Assembly: GCA_003598065.1 (NCBI GenBank)
Contig: QZKR01000152.1
Span: 124,001 to 188,000 of the forward strand
Reading direction: 5' to 3'
Source of the DNA: Myxococcales bacterium
Lineage (GTDB): Bacteria > Myxococcota_A > SURF-8
DNA: 64,000 nucleotides
Below, piece after piece: positions 19,533 to 35,364 of the stretch (the stretch's first letter is position 1; the number at the start of each line of letters is the position of its first letter). Below the pieces are notes generated by a model. That model saw nothing but the letters and a program-made list of their open reading frames with translations. It made no database searches and was not told the DNA's origin. The position numbers were made by a program, and so were the translations under genes.

Positions 19533-21497
19533 ATGAGTGGAATGCTGGTGGAATTGCGGCGGGCGTTTCCCGGATGGGACGAAATCGCCTCTCTCGAACG
19601 AATCACGATCATCGACCAGGTGCCGGCCGCGACCATCAAGGGCGTCGGCACGGGCCGCGTCGTCGTCGTCGCCGAGACGACGAAGGGGCCGGTCAACAAG
19701 ACGATCAAGGTCGGCGACGTCTCGGAGATCGTTTCCCTCTTCGGCGACATCGACAAGACGATCACTACGGACCTCGAAGCGACCCCCGACACGCTGGGCG
19801 CTGCGCCAACCAAAGGCTGGGAGGGCAACCTCTGGTGGGCAGTGATGAACAAGCGCTTCGCCGAACTCTGCATCACGCGCGCCGATACGGCAATTCGGGA
19901 AAATACTAATAAAGAAAAAGTATCGTTCGCGCTCGCCCGCACAGCGGTTTCGACGACGGCAACCGAGGCCAGCGTCGGTGATGAGGACGTGACCTTGAAA
20001 GTGACCGATCGGACCGGCTTCGAGAAGGTCATGTTCAACGGCAGCCTCGTCGATGTGAGCGCTGAACACCCGATCGAAATCACCATCGCCGGGACGGCGG
20101 CTTATGTCGTGGGAGTGGAGGCAACCACGGACCTAACTGGCACCTTGACCTTGAGCGCTCCCGCGACATGGCTCATAAGCGCGGCGGTCGTCCGTGTCCT
20201 CGATGCTTACACGCTGCCGGGCGGTGCGCTCGTCACCGGCAAAAATGATGACGGCACAGCAATTGTTGCTGCCATGACCGATGACGTGAGTTTCGCTAAG
20301 GGGGTACTGACGGCAACCATCTACCTGAGGCCGGTGTCCGACCTTATCTGTAACAAAGCGATTGGTGGAGCAACATACCACGGCTTTACTGATGTCGAAA
20401 CTGAGACAATTGATGGCCGAATCTGCCCGAAAACGACGCTAGTTCTTAGTGGTGATTCGGCCATGCCTTACCCACCGGGAATGACGATGGGTCCCGATTC
20501 GGTGACAACAGCAAGCCTCTTCACCTGTGACACGTGGGCCAATATCGTCAACGACGCCTATACCGCAGCGATTGGCAACCTGGACAATCTCGGCGGATCC
20601 TTCGCTTCGGCGGGCGACGCCGCGTCGCGGAACGTCCTCGTTTCCGCCCGCCATTGGGCCGGCGGGACGAGCCTCAACGAATGCAATTTTATCCGCACAG
20701 CGATGAAAAAACATGCAGATGACTCCGAGGCCACTGGCGTCTTCGTAGTCTGTCCGATTCGGCCGCCGATCGGTTGCGACAAGGAGACGGCCTTGAAAGC
20801 CGCCTCCACCGATCCGAGCGTGGTGACGTATCGCTCCGACCGCATCCTGTACGCCTACCCGCACTTCATGATGAAGCTTTCGCCGTTCTCCTCCGAGGAA
20901 ATCGCCGTCGGGGCGGACGTCTGGCTGGCCTCCGTGCTCAGCCAGCTCGCGGCGGAGGAAAGCCCCGCCCAGTATCACCACCTGATGGACGGGCGCGGCA
21001 TCACCGGCCTCGGCCAGCTCAAAAGCCTCTCCACTTCCACGGCGGCTCGCGATTTGACGTTCCAGGACTACAAGGACTTCAAGAACTCCGGCGTCATCGC
21101 CCCGATGTTCAGCGCCGATCACGGCTACACCTTCTACAGCGCCATCACCAGCACGCTGGAGTCCGGCCGCGAATACATCGCCCGCCGGCGCTTCGCCGAC
21201 TTCGTCAACGGCACGGTGGCGCGCTACATCGAGCAGCACAAATCGGCCACGCCGAAGACCAAACGGATCGACGCGATCCGCACGTCGCTGACCACCTTCT
21301 TCAGCGAGTTGAAGTCCGAAAACAACCCCGACGCGCAGCGCATCGACAATTTCATGCTGGACATCACCTCGAAGAACACGGCCACGACGCGGGCCAAGAA
21401 GATCTTCGTCGTCGCCTGGAAGGTGAAGATGCTGCCGGAGATGGGCAGCTTCGCCTTGTTCTCGGAAATCGGCGACACCGTCGAAATCGCTGAATAA
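19533..21497 (+). CDS. Contractile tail sheath protein
   Basis: 654 residues. The N-terminus (ATIKGVGTGRVVVVAETTKGPVNKTIKVGDVSEIVSLFG) is the characteristic opening of phage tail sheath proteins, and the C-terminal domain (YTFYSAITSTLESGREYIARRRFADFVNGTVARYI, then a basic helix and a final beta strand) is the conserved sheath interlocking domain. Residues about 125-340 form an insertion with visibly higher AT content than the flanks (bases about 19895-20540), probably the outward-facing protrusion domain. Sheath subunits form the outer tube that contracts to drive the inner tube through a target envelope. The tail-tube gene follows. Confidence 0.92.
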   Translation: MSGMLVELRRAFPGWDEIASLERITIIDQVPAATIKGVGTGRVVVVAETTKGPVNKTIKVGDVSEIVSLFGDIDKTITTDLEATPDTLGAAPTKGWEGNLWWAVMNKRFAELCITRADTAIRENTNKEKVSFALARTAVSTTATEASVGDEDVTLKVTDRTGFEKVMFNGSLVDVSAEHPIEITIAGTAAYVVGVEATTDLTGTLTLSAPATWLISAAVVRVLDAYTLPGGALVTGKNDDGTAIVAAMTDDVSFAKGVLTATIYLRPVSDLICNKAIGGATYHGFTDVETETIDGRICPKTTLVLSGDSAMPYPPGMTMGPDSVTTASLFTCDTWANIVNDAYTAAIGNLDNLGGSFASAGDAASRNVLVSARHWAGGTSLNECNFIRTAMKKHADDSEATGVFVVCPIRPPIGCDKETALKAASTDPSVVTYRSDRILYAYPHFMMKLSPFSSEEIAVGADVWLASVLSQLAAEESPAQYHHLMDGRGITGLGQLKSLSTSTAARDLTFQDYKDFKNSGVIAPMFSADHGYTFYSAITSTLESGREYIARRRFADFVNGTVARYIEQHKSATPKTKRIDAIRTSLTTFFSELKSENNPDAQRIDNFMLDITSKNTATTRAKKIFVVAWKVKMLPEMGSFALFSEIGDTVEIAE

Positions 21498-21532: not shown

Positions 21533-21967
21533 ATGTCCGTTTTAACGCTCAGAGGCGACGCCGTGGACATCAGCGTGGAGGTCAACGGCCAGACGAAAGA
21601 GGTGTTCACCTGCGCCAAGTCGATCGACACCACCTTCAACGTCGATACGGAGCAGGTGGGCTATCTCGGCCAGTCCACCGACCGGACCGAGGAGGTTTTC
21701 AACGGCGCGAACGCCACCATCGAACTCGATCAGAACACGCCGGAGTACCTGAAGCTGATCAGCTTCTTCGTGGGCCGCGCCCGCCAGCGCCTTCCCGGCG
21801 TGAAGGTCAACGTCAGCGCGAAGTACACCTTCCCGACGGGCGAGACGCAGACGGTCATCCTGCAGGACGTCAAGGCGCGCAATCCGCAGCTCACGGCGAA
21901 AAGCCGCCGCGAGCGCGTCGGCGGCAAGCTGGAGGTCCATTCCGACGAGCCGCTGATCGTCGGCTGA
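21533..21967 (+). CDS. Tail tube protein
   Basis: 144 residues, beta-rich, size typical of contractile tail tubes (P2 FII and relatives). The pattern SVLTLRGDAVDISVEVNGQTKEVFTCAKSIDTTFNVDTEQVGYLG, later NATIELD and FFVGRARQRLPGVKVNVSAKYTFPTGETQTVILQDVK, matches the tube fold that opens with a description of self-interaction and closes with a purine-rich strand end. It lies between sheath and the frameshifting chaperone, the canonical order. A GGAAAGGA stretch precedes the ATG. Confidence 0.85.
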   Translation: MSVLTLRGDAVDISVEVNGQTKEVFTCAKSIDTTFNVDTEQVGYLGQSTDRTEEVFNGANATIELDQNTPEYLKLISFFVGRARQRLPGVKVNVSAKYTFPTGETQTVILQDVKARNPQLTAKSRRERVGGKLEVHSDEPLIVG

Positions 21968-22070
21968 CGCCGTTTTCCCCGCCGCCGCGCTCTCCGATGC
22001 GGCTTTCCCCCGGCCGCATCGGGGAGCCGGCGGCATTTGGACCCATCCGCCAACTTTCGAGGAGACCGCC

Positions 22071-22454
22071 ATGAGCGAACCGAACCCGACCGACAACGGC
22101 CGCCGCGAGCCGGTCCATACCTTCACCTTCCCCGAGTCGGTCCGCCAGTCCTGGAAGGAGAAGCACGGCGAGGACGGACCGACGACGATCGGCCTCGTCG
22201 AGAACAACCTGGAACGCGACGCGCTGGCCATCAAGCGTTCCCAGGCGCGCCGGACGCCCCCCAGCGAGGAGATGGTGCGCATCGCGCTTGTCGAACTGGA
22301 CGGCGCGCCGCTGGACGACACGGAGCGCGAGCAGTTTTTCAACAAGGCGACGCGCAAGATGCGCGAGCTGATCGCCGACGCCTGGGCGGTGGTCAACCTG
22401 CCCCGCCAGGAGGAAACGCGGGATTTTTTATCGAGCAGGCAGGTCGTCTACTAG
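22071..22454 (+). CDS. Tail assembly chaperone, short (gpG/E-like) form
   Basis: 127 residues, charged and mostly helical, translated when no frameshift occurs. Position between tube and tape measure, small size and an overlapping -1 frame extension are the hallmarks of the tail assembly chaperone pairs (lambda G/GT, P2 E/E+E'). The short form coats the tape-measure protein during tail assembly. The last eight residues (SSRQVVY and the residue before) follow the slippery site and are replaced in the long form. Confidence 0.82.
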   Translation: MSEPNPTDNGRREPVHTFTFPESVRQSWKEKHGEDGPTTIGLVENNLERDALAIKRSQARRTPPSEEMVRIALVELDGAPLDDTEREQFFNKATRKMRELIADAWAVVNLPRQEETRDFLSSRQVVY

Positions 22455-22744
22455 GCCAGCGACGGCGAACCGCCGGCGAGGCGGCGATCGACCAGTATGT
22501 CCGCGGTTTCGCCGACATCGCCGAGGACGACCCGCTCGACGAGCGCTTTCTGGGCCAGTTTCTCCAGGCGGCCGAAGATATGGCGACGGGTCTGGCCATC
22601 GCCTCGATGGCCGTCGAGACGCGGCGGACGCTCTATCGCATGCCGCATTCCGAGCGGCGGCGCTTCCGGGCGGCCGTCGAGGAGCATTCGCCCCTGATCG
22701 CCAGAAGCCAGAACCAAACCTCAACCTCAGACTACGAGTTTTAA
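22071..22744 (+). CDS. Tail assembly chaperone, long (gpGT/E+E'-like) form by -1 frameshift
   Basis: Ribosomes that slip back one base at 22424-22430 leave the short frame and continue through 104 more codons to the TAA at 22742-22744, giving about 224 residues. The -1 frame has no start codon or ribosome site of its own at the junction and carries a well-formed helical C-terminal domain (IDQYVRGFADIAEDDPLDERFLGQF, then METRRTLYRMPHSERRRF-like), so it is expressed only by frameshifting. In phages the extension joins the chaperone to the tube protein. The stop abuts the next ATG (TAAATG), so translation is likely coupled. Confidence 0.8.
22408..22430 (+). promoter_or_regulatory. Programmed -1 ribosomal frameshift site with internal Shine-Dalgarno
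   Basis: The slippery heptamer T-TTT-TTA (22424-22430) is in the correct zero-frame phase (GAT TTT TTA) for tandem slippage to TTT TTT. AGGAGG (22408-22413) lies ten bases before it, the distance at which an internal Shine-Dalgarno stimulates -1 slippage in dnaX. A small hairpin (CGGCG/CGCCG, 22463-22475) and an alternative six-base stem (22443-22448 with 22461-22466) lie downstream. Confidence 0.8.
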
Positions 22745-23962
22745 ATGGCAAACGCTAACGACGACACCGAGAGACTGTACTCGTCGCCGGATGACGACCA
22801 AAGCAGCGAATGGCCGCAAAGCGCCATCGGCAACGTCAGCGAACAAATCGACGCTAGTACGCCGAATCAGCTCATGAGCGTCGGCCCGGAGGAAAGAGCA
22901 TCAGAAAACCAACGTCCTCAGGTGCATCGTGGAATTCCGATATACCAGCCGAATCCAGAGGCATTAGCAATAAATCCTACATATCCTCCGCTTTTGCCTT
23001 CTCCTATCCACGCACTTAATTTGCCAAAATACCTGGAGGCGATTCATCTACTCGAAATAGGTCATAAAGGTTATGAGGGGTATGAAACACTAGAGGAAAC
23101 CAAATCGGAGTTCACACCCAATTGGAGTGGTGTGGTAGACACACAGCCCCCTCCATATTCGCCGGAAGAAATGCCATATGTACCTCGAGCGGTAATTGCA
23201 CCTCTCCCTGAAGAAAACCTTAAAGATCTTCGCAAACCATCACCTCCGATCATGGATCGCCAGTCAGAACCGGGTTCGTTCAGGGAAAAGCACACACAGA
23301 ATATTACAGCTAGCGATTTCTCGTCAGAGGAAGGGGGGGGTCCAGAAGGCATTTCTGAGACTTCAAAGATAGCAGGACTGACTCTCGCTGAACCGGCTCT
23401 GGAACTTGCAAAACACGCCATTCCCCAATTAGCCGGGGTTGCCAAGTTAGCTTCTAAAGTGCTTCCAATAGCAGAATTTGCTGAAATAGCATCTTTTATG
23501 TTTGTACAAACTGCGAAGGCAGCAGAACGCTATGTTGAGTGGGGAGAGAAGCATCCGGATGTTCGAAACGACGGGCTGAGACTCCTTGGACGGTTGCCTC
23601 CAGAGGGAGAAGGAAAAAAGGTGAATCAGGATATCGACTTAGAAAAACAACCATCCTCCTCTTATGACACAATCGCACCTTTCCCAGAGGACAGGCTGAG
23701 AAATTTCTTCAATGAACCACAAGTTTCCCCGACTAGTGATCCCGGACTGCAAAGGTTAAATGATTCCCGAATGTGGCCGCCTAAGCAGACGGGAGAAAAG
23801 ACGTCGATGAATCAAACCCAGCACATCGGCTCGATGTCGGTGGCGGTGTATGTCAACAATCCGACCTCGGAAGAAGTCGCGGCAGCCGTTGCGGCCTCCT
23901 TGGGCGAAGGAGCGGCCAGCGGCGTATCGACGCTCTTAGGCTCATCGACGGCCGTAGGTTAG
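22745..23962 (+). CDS. Short chimeric protein in the tape-measure position
   Basis: 405 residues. The first 350 are Pro- and Ser-rich and encoded by AT-richer DNA than every neighbour; near residues 215-275 there is a helical hydrophobic stretch (LAEPALELAKHAIPQLAGVAKLASKVLPIAEFAEIA). The last 50 residues are GC-rich again, and SVAVYVNNPTSEEVAAAVAASL resembles the C-terminal end of many tape-measure proteins. It sits where the tape measure always lies, directly after the chaperone pair and before the LysM gene. It may be a degenerate or replaced tape measure; if it sets length at about 1.5 angstrom per residue the tail would be near 60 nm. A second possible start at 23808 has GGGAGA upstream. 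Confidence 0.5.
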   Translation: MANANDDTERLYSSPDDDQSSEWPQSAIGNVSEQIDASTPNQLMSVGPEERASENQRPQVHRGIPIYQPNPEALAINPTYPPLLPSPIHALNLPKYLEAIHLLEIGHKGYEGYETLEETKSEFTPNWSGVVDTQPPPYSPEEMPYVPRAVIAPLPEENLKDLRKPSPPIMDRQSEPGSFREKHTQNITASDFSSEEGGGPEGISETSKIAGLTLAEPALELAKHAIPQLAGVAKLASKVLPIAEFAEIASFMFVQTAKAAERYVEWGEKHPDVRNDGLRLLGRLPPEGEGKKVNQDIDLEKQPSSSYDTIAPFPEDRLRNFFNEPQVSPTSDPGLQRLNDSRMWPPKQTGEKTSMNQTQHIGSMSVAVYVNNPTSEEVAAAVAASLGEGAASGVSTLLGSSTAVG

Positions 23963-27753: not shown

Positions 27754-27899
27754 CCGATGAACGCACGCGTTTTATAGAAATACCGAGTTTGGTGGACATC
27801 AAAACACCTACGTCCAGCATCCCCGGTTTCAAGCTGCCGACGCTGGGCCTTTCGATACCCAAAATCGACATCGACCGCCCGTTTACGGACGCCGCTTAA
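27754..27899 (+). pseudogene. Remnant C-terminus in front of the beta-helix gene
   Basis: One frame stays open through the spike stop and reads about 48 residues, IEIPSLVDIKTPTS then IPGFKLPTLGLSIPKIDIDRP and FTDAA, without a start codon or ribosome site. The last part matches the sequence in front of the second beta-helix gene (DIDIPCPFADAA), so it is the left-over end of an older gene, probably the native spike tail. It could also be a very small expressed gene starting at TTG 27789. Confidence 0.4.
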
Positions 27900-28340
27900 A
27901 GAGGTCGCCATGGCTCCGATTTACGATCTGCTGCCGAAAATCACCGGCCCCACCGGACGCACCGAAGGCGTTTATACGACGATCGACGAGCCGGTCCTGC
28001 CCGGCCCGCCGCAGTCGCTCGTGAGCGTCGTCGTCGCCGATGCCATGCAATTGCCGCCGGGCGGCGCGGACTGCCCCTGCGAGCTGTGCGTCGTGGACGC
28101 GGCGAACCCGCTTATGGTTAAAGAAGTCTTCTCCAACTGGTCCTCGATCGACGTCAACACGCTGGTGGACTGCGTGCGACGCTACGGCGCCCCCGTTTCG
28201 GCCGGCGACATCGCCCATATCGGCCCGACCGGCAGCGCCTACAACCTGCTTTGCGACAGCGTGAAGGCGCTGGGCGGCGTGGCCCGCATCGTCGCCAAGA
28301 CGCCCGGGCATTACGCCACCTTCGCCGAGGCCCAGGCCGT
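27864..28340 (+). repeat. Direct repeat, first copy (5' part of beta-helix gene and leader)
   Basis: Begins 46 bases before the ATG of the first beta-helix gene and runs through about 430 bases of coding sequence. Large blocks are identical to 30360-30822, including the leader TTAAAGAGGTCGCC and the codons for APIYDLLPKI and GPTGSAYNLLCDSVKALGG; the variable blocks are shorter. Confidence 0.8.
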
Positions 28341-30135: not shown

Positions 30136-30405
30136 GAGAGGGGGACCTCTCGGCACACACGGCCTCGGCGCGGCGCCCGGATTCACGGCAATTCCGCCGA
30201 CTCCGGAGACAGCCGGCCCGACCCTGGAAGAACTGTTCGGCTTCCCGATACTCAGAAGTGGAATAAGCATTTGTCGATTTGAAGCCGCTAAGTTGGCCTG
30301 GAATTAGCGTCTCGACATCCAAGGTTTAATCGTCGGAGCTTGCCTTGAAGCTTCCGGACATCGACATCCCTTGTCCGTTCGCGGACGCCGCTTAAAGAGG
30401 TCGCC
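30136..30405 (+). other. Spacer with degenerate coding remnants between the two beta-helix genes
   Basis: 270 bases with no complete gene. One frame reads a Pro-rich segment (PGFTAIPPTPETAGPTLEELFG) with no start codon and stops at 30307, and the end (30360-30405) repeats the leader of the first copy including ADAA and the stop codon. It looks like debris from recombination that duplicated the tail-protein gene. Confidence 0.5.
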
Positions 30406-30822
30406 ATGGCTCCGATTTACGATCTGCTGCCGAAAATCAACCGCACTCTCGGACGCACCGAAGGCGTTTATACGACGATCGACAACGTGGCTTCGGGGGA
30501 CCCGGGCCTTTTCAACGTCACGGTCGCCGACGCCTCGAATCTGCCCGAGGGCGGCTCGGACGGCCCCTGCGAGCTGTGCGTCGTGGACGCGGCGAACCCG
30601 CTGAACGTGAAAGAGGTTTTCTCCAACTGGACAGGGATCAGCGGAAATGTACTGCAAAACTGCGCAAGGCGTTACGGCCAAACCGTCGCCGCCGGCGACA
30701 TCGCCCACGTCGGCCCGACCGGCAGCGCCTACAACCTGCTTTGCGACAGCGTGAAGGCGCTGGGCGGCGTGGCGCGCATCGTCTCCAAGACGCCTGGGCA
30801 TTACGCCACCTTCGCCGAAGCC
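30360..30822 (+). repeat. Direct repeat, second copy (5' part of beta-helix gene and leader)
   Basis: Matches 27864-28340; the distance from repeat start to ATG is 46 bases in both copies. After the repeat, the two genes diverge strongly, as expected if the 5' module is the shared anchor and the 3' module is swapped. Confidence 0.8.
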
Positions 30823-32994
30823 ATCGACGCCATTGCGGCGGACGGCGAGGCGGGCGTCAATGATGTCATCGTCGCCTTTCCAGGCGTCTATTTGGAGCGG
30901 CTGACCAATCTGCGAAACTCCGTCGTCTGCATGGGGAACGTCACCGCGCAGGGAATCGATTTTGCAGACCCATCCGTAACGACGGGTTTCGACGTCATGA
31001 TCGACAATCTCGAACTCTCGACGAGCCTGGGCGGCGGGGCGGAAGACTATGCCATAACGACGACTACCGCCGACCAGTATGCGTGCCAAATTCGCCTGCG
31101 ACGTTGCCTGATATCGGGCGGCGGCGGCGCGATAGAGAGCGCGATCCTGCACCGGGGCGGATTTCTTGCGATCGACTCGGAGTGCGGCGTCGCCAATGGC
31201 GCCCCCTCGCCGGCCGGGCCGTCCATGGCCATCCGCCTGGACGGATCGGTGGGCTACCCGCACCTGCTCTTGCGCGGCGGCCACATCATCGTCAACCAGT
31301 CTTCCGACGCCGGCGAGGACGCGGCGGCCATCGTCGCCTTCGGTGCGGGCGCGGTGGTCGATGTCGAGAGCGCGCAGTTCTCGGCGATTATCGACGGCGC
31401 TACGGAATTCGGCGCGCGCGTCGCCGGCGTGCTCTGCGGCGACGGCGCGGCCAGTAGCGTGCGCGACGTGCGGCTGCGCGTGCGCACGACGGGCGGCGCG
31501 ACCTTCGGCGCCGACAGCTACGCCTCCGGCATCATCGCGGAGGAAGCCGCCGAGATCCCGAACTTCGACGGCCTGACGGTCGAGATCGACGAGGGCGTAA
31601 CGCTCGCCGACGTCCGCGAGGCGACGATAGAGGCCGACAACGAGGAAATTTCCTCCATCGCGGCCAAACTCCCGGCCGTCGTGCGCCGGCCGGTCCACAT
31701 CCTCCTCAGCGGCGACAAGGACACTCCCAATCTCCATCTCGGCGACGCCGCATTCGCCACGGCCTGCCTCGGTTTGGGGAAAATCGTTCTGGAACCGGCC
31801 GGCGTGGCCTGTTCGGGAATTCTGGCCGTCGTCGAGGCGGGCGCGGCCTGGTTTACGGCCCTCAAAAACGATCTGCCGGGCACGGCCCCCAACGAGTGGG
31901 ACGGCGCGAAGCTGTTCGTCGCCTACGATCCCTACAGCGCCGGCGACATCCTGATCGTTACGTCCGGGGCCATAAGCGCCGACCCCGACGGAACCCCGAA
32001 CGAAGCTGGGACCTGCTGGAAATTCGGCGTCTCGCCGGATTTCACCGGCGGGGCGCTGAATCCGCCGACGAGCGACAGCCGCGTCCTGCTTTCCGCCTGC
32101 GGCCTCGTGGACGGGCAGACGAGGATCGTCGCCGGCGTCGTGGAGATCGGCGCGATCAACGTCTTCGACACCTCGATCGTCGTCGAGCCGGGCGCGGAGC
32201 TGCGCCCGAGAGACGACATGAGCCTATGCTATCCGAGCGGCGCCGCCCCCGCCGCCATCCGGCTGCGCGGCGTGCTGCGCGTGGCCGGCCGCTGGCACAT
32301 GATCGGCCTCAACGGCATCGGCATCCTCCACGAGGGGGGCGAGTTCGTCACCGAAATTGACGACGATTACGAGTGTAACTTTACGGCGATCGCACTCGGC
32401 GCATTCGCCTGTTCGACGTTTTTCGTCGGCGGGTCGGCGTTCTTCATCAATATAACCTGTAGCTTCTGCGGCGAGGCATCCGGGCAGCCGGCCTTCGATT
32501 TTTCCGGCCTGCGCGGCGGGCTGCGCACCTCGGTGCTGATCGGCGCCGGCGACCAGGTCGTCGTGCGCGTGCGCGACAACGCCGCCGTGGATTTCACGGG
32601 CGTTTACGATTTAACGGCCGAGCCGGCCGTGCCGATCGTCCCGACGCTCCTCAACGGCGGCGTCATGATTCCGAGCATATCCGTGCAGTCGCTCGCCTCG
32701 GCGGCGACCATCACCCCCCTGGCCGCGAACGACGTGGTGAGCGTGTCCGCCCTGGCCGAAGCCGCCACCATCGCCGCCCCCAGCGGAACGGCGGAAGACG
32801 GCCACAAGCTGGTCATCCGCATCAAGGACAACGGAACGGCGCGCGCCCTGACCTGGAACGCAGCCTACGTGCTGGCCATCTCCGGCGTCGCCTTGCCGGT
32901 GGCGACAACGGCTGGCAAGTGGCACCATGTCAACTGCATATACAACGCCACGGCGTCCGAATGGCAGGTCGTCGCCATCGAGGTCGAGCCATGA
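30406..32994 (+). CDS. Beta-helix tail protein 2, likely receptor-binding
   Basis: 862 residues, paralogue of the gene at 27910. The first 140 residues are closely similar; the middle is divergent beta-helix (DVESAQFSAIIDGATEFGARVAG, VRDVRLRVRTTGG) and keeps the same domain order, as in the MVLSAGITASDKNG/LIVTSGAISADPDG region. Its last 95 residues (ITPLAANDVVSVSALAEAATIAAPSGTAEDGHKL and RALTWNAAYVLAI then VATTAGKWHHVNCIYNATASEWQVVA) are a C-terminal domain shared by many phage tail proteins, absent from the first copy. The stop overlaps the next ATG (ATGA). The pair probably gives a second host-range specificity. Confidence 0.75.
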   Translation: MAPIYDLLPKINRTLGRTEGVYTTIDNVASGDPGLFNVTVADASNLPEGGSDGPCELCVVDAANPLNVKEVFSNWTGISGNVLQNCARRYGQTVAAGDIAHVGPTGSAYNLLCDSVKALGGVARIVSKTPGHYATFAEAIDAIAADGEAGVNDVIVAFPGVYLERLTNLRNSVVCMGNVTAQGIDFADPSVTTGFDVMIDNLELSTSLGGGAEDYAITTTTADQYACQIRLRRCLISGGGGAIESAILHRGGFLAIDSECGVANGAPSPAGPSMAIRLDGSVGYPHLLLRGGHIIVNQSSDAGEDAAAIVAFGAGAVVDVESAQFSAIIDGATEFGARVAGVLCGDGAASSVRDVRLRVRTTGGATFGADSYASGIIAEEAAEIPNFDGLTVEIDEGVTLADVREATIEADNEEISSIAAKLPAVVRRPVHILLSGDKDTPNLHLGDAAFATACLGLGKIVLEPAGVACSGILAVVEAGAAWFTALKNDLPGTAPNEWDGAKLFVAYDPYSAGDILIVTSGAISADPDGTPNEAGTCWKFGVSPDFTGGALNPPTSDSRVLLSACGLVDGQTRIVAGVVEIGAINVFDTSIVVEPGAELRPRDDMSLCYPSGAAPAAIRLRGVLRVAGRWHMIGLNGIGILHEGGEFVTEIDDDYECNFTAIALGAFACSTFFVGGSAFFINITCSFCGEASGQPAFDFSGLRGGLRTSVLIGAGDQVVVRVRDNAAVDFTGVYDLTAEPAVPIVPTLLNGGVMIPSISVQSLASAATITPLAANDVVSVSALAEAATIAAPSGTAEDGHKLVIRIKDNGTARALTWNAAYVLAISGVALPVATTAGKWHHVNCIYNATASEWQVVAIEVEP

Positions 32995-33110
32995 ACACCC
33001 GGAGCTTGATTTCCGAAGTTCGTCAGTCCAACGGCTGTCTGGCGGCCATAAGGCGGCCGAGAAGCGAACGAGTTTCGATAAACGAATCGGTCGGCGGCGC
33101 GGCCGCCTAG
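32991..33110 (+). CDS. Possible 39-residue protein between beta-helix gene and gp25
   Basis: ATG overlapping the stop of the beta-helix gene opens a frame of 39 codons (MNTRSLISEVRQSNGCLAAIRR ...) ending ten bases before the gp25 ATG. It is basic and has no recognisable domain. Translational coupling would be possible because of the ATGA overlap, but there is no strong ribosome site. It may be a real small peptide or a leftover of a gene end; support is weak. Confidence 0.35.
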   Translation: MNTRSLISEVRQSNGCLAAIRRPRSERVSINESVGGAAA

Positions 33111-33118
33111 GAGTCCCC

Positions 33119-33952
33119 ATGTTCGGTTCCATGCCATACGGCGGCGTGCCGTTCGGCTCGCTGCGAGGCGGCGCTCTCGAGCCGCCGACGCTCGATTTCG
33201 TGTACGCCGCCGCCCAGAACCGCCTCGTGCTGCGGTTCTCGACCGCCCTGCGCGAGGACGATCCCGTCGATCTCGCCGACGCCCTCAACCCCCGCTATTA
33301 CGGCGTCGAGGAAAACGGCGAAAAAACGCTGGAGGTGGTCGAGGCGCGGCTCTGCGAGCGGGAAGACGAAGTGGAGCTGTGGCTCGTGCCGTCGATGAGC
33401 GAGGGCGCGGACATCGATGTCTCCGTCGCCGCCGGCATAAGCACCGGGTCCGGCCAGATGGTGGGCGAGCAAAGCGCCTCCATTGTCGCGCCCGTGCGGA
33501 TGCGCGACCGGGCGCGCGGTCCCAAGCAGATCGACTTCGCCTCGCCGCAGCCGACGGCCGAGCGGTCGCCGGGGGCCATGGCGCCGGACATCGGCACCTA
33601 CCAGACCAGCGGCACGGGCGACTACGCCGTCGAAAGCCGCCGCGCCAACCTGCGCAAGCGCATCTATCGGCAGCTGATCGTCTCGCCGGGGTCGCTGCCG
33701 TCCAGCCCCGATTACGGCATCGGCATCGAGCGCCACCGCGCCCAGGCCGTCACCGACGCGCTGAAGCAGACCATCGCCGGCGACATCCGCCGCGGCCTGC
33801 TGCGCGAGCCGGACATCGCCCAGGTGCGGGTCAAGTTCGAGGAGCAGCGCACCAGGCAGGGGCTGGTGCTGGTCGTCCGCATCGGCGTCACCGCCACCGA
33901 CGGCTTCGCCGACGAATCCGAACACGCCTTCGACTGGGAGGTCCTCCGATGA
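33119..33952 (+). CDS. Baseplate wedge protein, gp25-like
   Basis: 277 residues. The C-terminal half is a gp25/gpW-like domain: LRKRIYRQLIVSPGSLPSSPDYGIGIERH, then ALKQTIAGDIRRGLLREPDIAQVRVKFEE, with the SPDYG motif of baseplate wedges. The N-terminal half (residues 1-140) is an extra beta domain that links to other baseplate parts. The ATG at 33119 is preceded by AGGAG; longer in-frame starts lie inside the previous gene and were rejected. It overlaps the gpJ start by four bases. Confidence 0.82.
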   Translation: MFGSMPYGGVPFGSLRGGALEPPTLDFVYAAAQNRLVLRFSTALREDDPVDLADALNPRYYGVEENGEKTLEVVEARLCEREDEVELWLVPSMSEGADIDVSVAAGISTGSGQMVGEQSASIVAPVRMRDRARGPKQIDFASPQPTAERSPGAMAPDIGTYQTSGTGDYAVESRRANLRKRIYRQLIVSPGSLPSSPDYGIGIERHRAQAVTDALKQTIAGDIRRGLLREPDIAQVRVKFEEQRTRQGLVLVVRIGVTATDGFADESEHAFDWEVLR

Positions 33953-35364
33953 CGATGCCCACCTTCGACGATTTCTTCGACCTCGCCGAGCGCGAGATCG
34001 TGCTCAACAACCCGCAGATCGATCCGGCGGAAATTCGCCGCCCCGGCTCCGACGCCAATCTGGTCGTCACCGCCGCCGCGACGATGGCCGACCAGATCGC
34101 CCAGGAAGCGAAACGGCGCTTCGCGGCGCTGTTCTTCGAAAGCGCCACGGGCGACGATCTGCGGGTGCTGGGCCGCGACCGCTACCGGCTGGCGGCCTAC
34201 GACGCCTCCGCCGCCCGCGGACACCTGACCTTCTACCGCAACGACGAGACGGCCGGCGACGTGGAAATCCCGCCGGGGACGCTCGTCGGCGACGTCGAGG
34301 GCCGGCAGATCCAGCTCACCTCCGGCGTGACGATCACCGGCCTCGTCCCGGTCAACGCGCCGGGCGTGACGCTGCAGACGGGCTCGCTGTCCAACGTCCG
34401 GCTCGGGCAAGCGCGCAAGATCGTCACCCGGCTTAGCGACCCGGCCCTCCGCGTCACCAACGCGGCGGCGCTGGCCGAATTTTCGCGGTCGGCCGGCGGG
34501 GACGCGGGGACCATTCCGGCCGGCTTCCGCGTCCGCGACGCCTACGGCCGCGTCTACCGGACGATGGAATCCCTGAGCTTCGAGAGCGGCCAGGCCGTCG
34601 GATTCGTGCCGCTGGAAATCGAGGCCGGCCACGGCTTCAACGCCCCGGTGGAAGCCGAGACGATCACGACGATGGTCGATGCGCCCTTCGCTTCGGGCTT
34701 CACCGTGGACAACCCCGTGCAGACCGGCGGGGCCTTCTCCGGCGGCGACGACGCCGAGCAGGACGGCGCGTTCGTCGAGCGCTGCCAGAAGTTCTTCGCC
34801 GCCGCGCGGCGCGGCACCCTGCCCGCCATCGACTACGGCGCGAAAAACACCCCCGGCGTCCGCTTCTCGCAGACCTACGAGGAGGAAATGAGCGGCGGCG
34901 TGCCGGCGCGCGCCGTGCGCGTGACCGTCGCCGACGTCAACGGCATCGGCAACGAGGCGCTCTGCGAGGACGTGCGGACGGCGCTGGCGGACTACCGCGC
35001 GGCCGGCATCCCGACTTTCGTCACCGGCGGCGATTTGCAGCCGGTGGACGTCAAATACCGTCTCGGCGCGCTGGCCGGCTGGGACCGGGAAATTCTGCAC
35101 AACGAAGTCGTCAACATGACCCGCGCGACGCTGGCGGAGCTGCCGCCCTCGACGGGAGAGGACCTGCCGACCAACGAGGGCGCGATCCGCATCGCGACCT
35201 TGATCGCCAGGCTCAAGGAGATTCCGGGCTTGTTCGTGCCCAGCGAGGCCGTGACGCTCGTTGTGGTTCCCGGCGACCCGGATTCGGAGACGGATTCCGA
35301 TTACATCCCCCTGCGCGGCAAAAGCGTCCGCGCCGGCGGCGTCGAGATCGACGAGTGGGTCTAA
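33949..35364 (+). CDS. Baseplate J-like protein
   Basis: 471 residues. Features of the gpJ/gp6 family: an N-terminal helix with FFDLAEREIVLNNP, ALFFESATGDDLRVLGRDRYRL, and GTLVGDVEGRQIQLTSGVTI, then GAFSGGDDAEQDGAFVERCQKFFAAARRGTLPAIDYGAKNTPGVR and a C-terminal alpha/beta domain (VEVKYRL-like). Baseplate J proteins link the wedge to the hub and the fibres. ATG overlaps the gp25 stop, so expression is coupled. The next gene is separated by a 261-base gap full of hairpins. Confidence 0.85.
   Translation: MTMPTFDDFFDLAEREIVLNNPQIDPAEIRRPGSDANLVVTAAATMADQIAQEAKRRFAALFFESATGDDLRVLGRDRYRLAAYDASAARGHLTFYRNDETAGDVEIPPGTLVGDVEGRQIQLTSGVTITGLVPVNAPGVTLQTGSLSNVRLGQARKIVTRLSDPALRVTNAAALAEFSRSAGGDAGTIPAGFRVRDAYGRVYRTMESLSFESGQAVGFVPLEIEAGHGFNAPVEAETITTMVDAPFASGFTVDNPVQTGGAFSGGDDAEQDGAFVERCQKFFAAARRGTLPAIDYGAKNTPGVRFSQTYEEEMSGGVPARAVRVTVADVNGIGNEALCEDVRTALADYRAAGIPTFVTGGDLQPVDVKYRLGALAGWDREILHNEVVNMTRATLAELPPSTGEDLPTNEGAIRIATLIARLKEIPGLFVPSEAVTLVVVPGDPDSETDSDYIPLRGKSVRAGGVEIDEWV

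Follow-up and report, generated by a model that had tools for sequence, protein, structure and literature searches.

A probable −1 programmed frameshift at T TTT TTA in the tail-chaperone position of a bacterial contractile-tail-like gene cluster

Tail-assembly chaperones made in two lengths are best known from phages. Phage P2 produces E+E' by a −1 frameshift at T TTT TTG (PMC3091744, PMC3931495), and phage lambda produces G and GT, a short and a long form with a common N-terminus, by a low-level −1 shift that gives a ratio of 30:1 (PMC5009743). The E. coli dnaX gene carries a Shine-Dalgarno (SD)-like element upstream of a tandem slippery heptamer (PMC3711429), and SD-like GAGG, GGAG, AGGA, GGNGG and AGGKG are reported to have been stimulatory in experiments at 6–17 nt (PMC4066793). 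The heptamer U UUU UUA is that of HIV-1 gag-pol (PMC5009743, PMC4373837); tandem slippage on it is established, the residue at the slip codon of the HIV product being Leu in 70–80% and Phe in 20–30%; in E. coli the heptamer is less slippery than A_AAA_AAG (PMC5009743). Here we describe a bacterial tail-like cluster that very probably makes a short and a long tail-assembly chaperone by −1 programmed frameshifting at TTTTTTA.

The cluster spans approximately 18.5 to 38.8 kb of the window, that is, of the whole 64,000-nucleotide stretch that was analysed. The tail sheath gene (19533..21497, on the + strand like all features given below) was recognized by phrog_23 (6.5e-5), weakly by PF17482 (0.0035), and by tblastn to the sheath of genome G024 (2.4e-10). 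It is followed by a 144-aa ORF in the tail-tube position (21533..21967), the frameshift gene, a 405-aa ORF in the tape-measure position (22745..23962), a LysM protein, a baseplate wedge gp25-like protein (32927..33952; PF04965, 2.2e-6) and a baseplate J-like protein (33949..35364; PF04865, 1.9e-14; phrog_6, 7.8e-30). Position was the only guide to the tube and the tape measure, the former being assigned from its place after the sheath and the latter from its start directly after the −1 stop; the 144-aa ORF had no family match in Pfam or PHROG, and the 405-aa ORF had no family match either. The window ORFs that were scanned included no member of a capsid, portal or terminase family, and the flanks tested were chromosomal on both sides (TetR, PPDK_N, BcrAD ATPase, LolA-like, histidine kinases, SpoVR, DUF444, PrkA). 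Judged from the ORFs scanned, the cluster is likely to be tailocin-like or a domesticated tail.

Two further features of the cluster were observed. The 405-aa ORF has a GC content of 0.51 and a GC3 of 0.48, most of its neighbours having a GC3 of 0.7–0.9, and its start codon, in frame with the −1 stop, follows it with 0 nt in between and has no evident Shine-Dalgarno sequence. In the regions 27890–28200 and 30386–30700, two large ORFs of 741 and 862 aa share an identical 20-nt upstream stretch and their first ~100 residues are closely similar (MAPIYDLLPKI...), which suggests a duplicated tail-fibre-like gene with diverged distal parts.

The frameshift gene begins with a zero-frame ORF of 127 aa (22071..22454), preceded by GAGGAG (22059..22064), its likely ribosome-binding site. 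From its codon log-odds and position, this ORF is the putative short chaperone form (G- or E-like). A preliminary description had noted a T TTT TTA heptamer in zero-frame phase with AGGAGG ten bases upstream, and both readings were correct: positions 22424–22430 read GAT-TTT-TTA in ORF 22071–22454 (X_XXY_YYZ), and exactly 10 nt separate the heptamer from AGGAGG (22408..22413), a candidate internal SD stimulator. The SD-to-heptamer spacing of dnaX is also 10 nt. The zero-frame stop TAG (22452..22454) comes 9 codons past the slip codon by the count of the heptamer screen. The −1 frame extension (22430..22744), a putative long-form domain (T- or E'-like), comprises 104 aa after the slip and 96 aa past the zero-frame stop; conceptual translation of the slipped product gives 224 aa, with RDFL-IEQAG at the junction. 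As had been described, this long −1 frame ends with TAA (22742–22744) immediately before ATG 22745; the additional statement that it opens only at the heptamer was wrong, the window sequence being without −1 stops from 21968 to 22742. The openness of the frame is weak evidence because the DNA is 62% GC, and long open frames are common in GC-rich DNA.

Codon usage was more telling. With log-odds built from the codon usage of 17 other window ORFs, the region 22071–22421 scored +48.8 in the zero frame and −51.3 in the −1 frame, and the region 22430–22742 scored +17.9 in the −1 frame, where the zero frame, continued beyond its stop, reached −29.3 and the +1 frame −56.2. As a function of position, the likelihood of a switch formed a near-flat plateau at ~22410–22452, which contains the heptamer, with a steep drop upstream. 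The codon statistics thus place the coding-frame switch independently of the heptamer, and two coding segments in adjacent frames therefore meet at it.

We then estimated how often such signals arise by chance, using synonymous recodings of the real protein drawn from local codon usage. Within the last 45 codons, a classical heptamer of any kind (Y = A or T) had P=0.0065, a TTTTTTN heptamer (T6N) P=0.005, and TTTTTTA (T6A) at exactly 22424–22430 P=0.0004. The TTA codon is rare (8 of 10052 codons, 0.08%; 8 of 900 Leu codons), and the arrangement AGGAGG-N7-14-TTTTTT occurs once in the window, where 0.02 were expected from shuffles. As to AGGAGG at 22408, it appeared in 44% of the synonymous recodings of RQEE (P=0.44), and its presence is weak evidence because Gln-Glu-Glu at this place makes AGGAGG nearly automatic. 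Given the protein, the heptamer is the informative element and the SD is suggestive only. Over the whole window and both strands AGGAGG occurred 40 times, against 26 expected, and 0 of 100 shuffles reached 40. The small downstream hairpin that had also been proposed did not hold up, its stability being no better than that of shuffles (z from −0.33 to −1.65 over four folding windows and −0.68 in another folding); folding against shuffles gave no significant stimulatory RNA structure downstream of the heptamer such as the dnaX hairpin.

We looked for relatives of the proteins. The short form and the extension had no Pfam or PHROG family match, their hhalign probability against the aligned T6N chaperones was 0.3%, and, single-sequence structure models of both being of low confidence, a fold search with that of the extension only gave no match. 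Since sequence comparison did not link the proteins to known chaperones, the locus was assigned to a functional kind and to no chaperone protein family. The chaperone and the sheath matched their own genome only, among 96 and 284 genomes, and no homologue of the sheath, tube or fused chaperone was found in the phages, viral contigs and genome contigs searched. A search of the phylum with baseplate J yielded two distant relatives, G024 and G229, whose chaperones differ from that of the window; G024 has a C CCC CCG candidate. In contig G229:C207 (L010/L011) the chaperone parts seem to be joined by an ATGA overlap, with no clear slippery heptamer.

Since direct homologues were not found, other contractile-tail clusters were surveyed. 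As a sheath query, a 3-sequence alignment worked, an 8-sequence one being too diverse. Phage P2 (AF063097), read directly, has GG-T TTT TTG-TCG with the zero-frame stop 8 codons on by the count of the screen, and TTTTTTG was present in 68 of 80 P2-like viral contigs, with AGGTG 5' of each. Among the Mu-type sheath loci of at least 6.5 kb, 38 of 120 gave a heptamer candidate. The T6N heptamers formed the largest class in this Mu-type survey, with 18 of 46 distinct contexts (TTTTTTG 12, TTTTTTA 4, TTTTTTC 2), some of the other contexts being probably due to chance. The T6A cases are L142, L158, L248 and L273, the last of which appears to be the same as L013 (G093:C2), a prophage of the same phylum in the Deltaproteobacteria MAG OFTM73 with the order sheath, tube, T TTT TTA chaperone, tape measure. 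Other chaperone candidates of the same phylum use G GGA AAG or G GGA AAA. In the surveyed T6N sites the zero-frame stop falls 6–15 codons past the slip, and in most of these chaperones the tape-measure start is −14 to +9 nt from the −1 stop. The extension past the zero-frame stop is 31–50 aa in the other listed T6N sites, except for L013/L273 with 97 aa, where we also observed a WPPSEI-type motif.

The heptamer search in tail clusters that had been suggested thus gave a divided answer: no close homologue was found in the collections searched, and T6A was present in four other contractile-tail clusters. Two claims of the preliminary description are not supported. Tail chaperones had been said to use mostly A- or G-rich heptamers, whereas T6N was the commonest class surveyed and P2 itself uses T TTT TTG; and the locus had been presented as an unusual combination of HIV and dnaX elements, whereas T6A occurs in the four other clusters and an SD-like element ~10 nt upstream recurs.

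This recurrence was quantified. At 13 of the 25 T6N sites, an SD-like match of at least 4 nt ended 8–12 nt upstream; control draws from the remaining in-phase positions in these genes averaged 3.8, and 0 of 2000 draws reached 13. The 25 sites include L108 and L139, which lie outside the tube-to-tape-measure interval; a test in which the amino acids were fixed drops both (23 sites). There, the summed SD score had P values from 0.011 (23 sites) to 0.10 (13 less related sites), and the SD count from 0.07 to 0.20. Because the excess is weak once amino acids are fixed, selection for the SD is not claimed; shared residues (Glu/Lys-Val-Val-Gly) may lie behind much of the excess at T6N sites. Individual cases are nevertheless close to the window's arrangement: GGAGG stands exactly 10 nt upstream of T6N in L151, L156, L171 and L224, and in the viral contig L142 GAGG precedes T6A at the same distance. 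In the P2-like contigs (L054–L133), AGGTGGT or AGGTGAT was consistently seen 5' of T6G, mostly encoding Lys-Val-Val/Ile; it fits the SD-like class AGGKG, yet it is also a conserved peptide.

Among these systems, the window locus resembles P2 E/E+E' in layout. As far as position tells, the window gene lies, like the P2 gene, between tube and tape measure; both carry T6N in the same phase with a stop 8–9 codons on, have the start of the gene in the tape-measure position touching the −1 stop and lack a clear hairpin. They differ in the last heptamer codon (TTG in P2, TTA here), in the SD-like element (AGGTGG closer in, against AGGAGG at 10 nt) and in the extension past the zero-frame stop (50 against 96 aa), and no protein sequence similarity was found. 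The putative products resemble lambda G and GT in their two forms with a common N-terminus, although the window cluster is of the contractile type and the proteins are unrelated. The Mu-type chaperones (L013/L273, L142, L151, L156, L158, L171, L224, L248) share T6N, several of them with GAGG or GGAGG 10 nt upstream, but have in common a WPPSEL-type −1 domain that is absent here. With dnaX the locus shares the upstream SD-like element, whereas dnaX slips on A AAA AAG, has a hairpin and makes a short product by the shift; in the window the heptamer is T6A, the hairpin is not significant and the frameshift product would be a longer one. The heptamer is identical to that of HIV-1, which acts on eukaryotic ribosomes and needs a stem-loop; the match is a coincidence and implies no relation.

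A single-base indel in the T run, whether a true mutation or an error of assembly, could also have split one continuous gene. One extra T, making seven, would fuse both frames into a single ORF, the adjoining 405-aa ORF is of unusual composition, and no homologue is at hand for comparing the site. We nevertheless consider this improbable, as six T is a short run, as independent tail clusters, the same-phylum prophage among them, also combine a T6N heptamer with an early zero-frame stop, and as the indel would have had to hit an in-phase X_XXY_YYZ by coincidence, and this in precisely the gene for which frameshifting is the norm. Still less credible is transcriptional slippage, in which RNA polymerase would add a base in the T run of some transcripts to give the same long protein: a six-T run is present and homopolymer runs are known to allow such slippage (PMC3711429, PMC5009743), but the T runs cited for transcriptional realignment exceed 8 (PMC3711429) and the phase of the heptamer is exactly that required for two tRNAs to slip in tandem. 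Equally hard to sustain are two overlapping genes translated separately, the −1 ORF from a start of its own and with no slip, for although AGGAGG could act as a ribosome-binding site and an ATGA overlap seems to connect the two parts of the G229 chaperone, the −1 frame has no ATG, GTG or TTG before 22580, so that no separate start suits AGGAGG, the sole start-like −1 codon near it is ATC 22430, 16 nt after AGGAGG, and a start at 22580 would lose ~50 residues, yet codon statistics support coding well upstream.

A −1 frameshift of the G/GT or E/E+E' type is thus the best reading because the gene sits between the tube and tape-measure positions, and a frameshift in this position, as first proposed, is well supported by the gene order, the heptamer phase, the codon switch, the distance to the stop and the abutting start of the ORF in the tape-measure position. 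Points against it are the lack of recognisable protein relatives, a heptamer that is weaker than A_AAA_AAG in E. coli and the lack of a significant downstream structure.

From the sequence elements, their phase, the frame switch and the gene order, all observed directly, we infer slippage in this gene, its rate, the part of the SD and the chaperone function as follows. Most ribosomes would read 22071–22454 and release the 127-aa short form. A minority would stall while tRNA-Phe occupies TTT and tRNA-Leu TTA, which base pairing between AGGAGG and the 16S anti-SD may favour. These ribosomes would move back by one base to TTT TTT and translate as far as 22742, producing the 224-aa long form; some of the long product would have Phe, not Leu, at the slip codon. 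Reasoning from lambda G/GT and P2 E/E+E', we would expect the short form to coat the tape-measure protein and the long form to recruit tube subunits. A low ratio like that of lambda G/GT would be in keeping with a weak heptamer plus an SD. We also considered a wider proposal, which seems to us rather unlikely: that T6N with an SD-like element ~10 nt upstream is a recurrent two-part signal of contractile-tail chaperones, undescribed as a class in the literature found, that the window has its strongest form in a new protein family with a long −1 domain, and that the ORF at 22745 is translated mainly by frameshifted ribosomes, one slip setting both ratios.

Altogether, the window site is a sound and mostly ordinary example of the known tail-chaperone frameshift device, and the novelty of its combination of elements is not upheld. 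As the survey shows, U-rich heptamers are not the exception in phage tail genes that they had seemed to be, and T6N tail-chaperone sites seem commonly to have an SD-like element about 10 nt upstream. These results also indicate that gene order and a slippery site can flag a chaperone whose protein sequence is beyond recognition, and they very probably extend the conserved tail-chaperone frameshift to a poorly sampled bacterial lineage, in a tail-like cluster that apparently lacks head genes.
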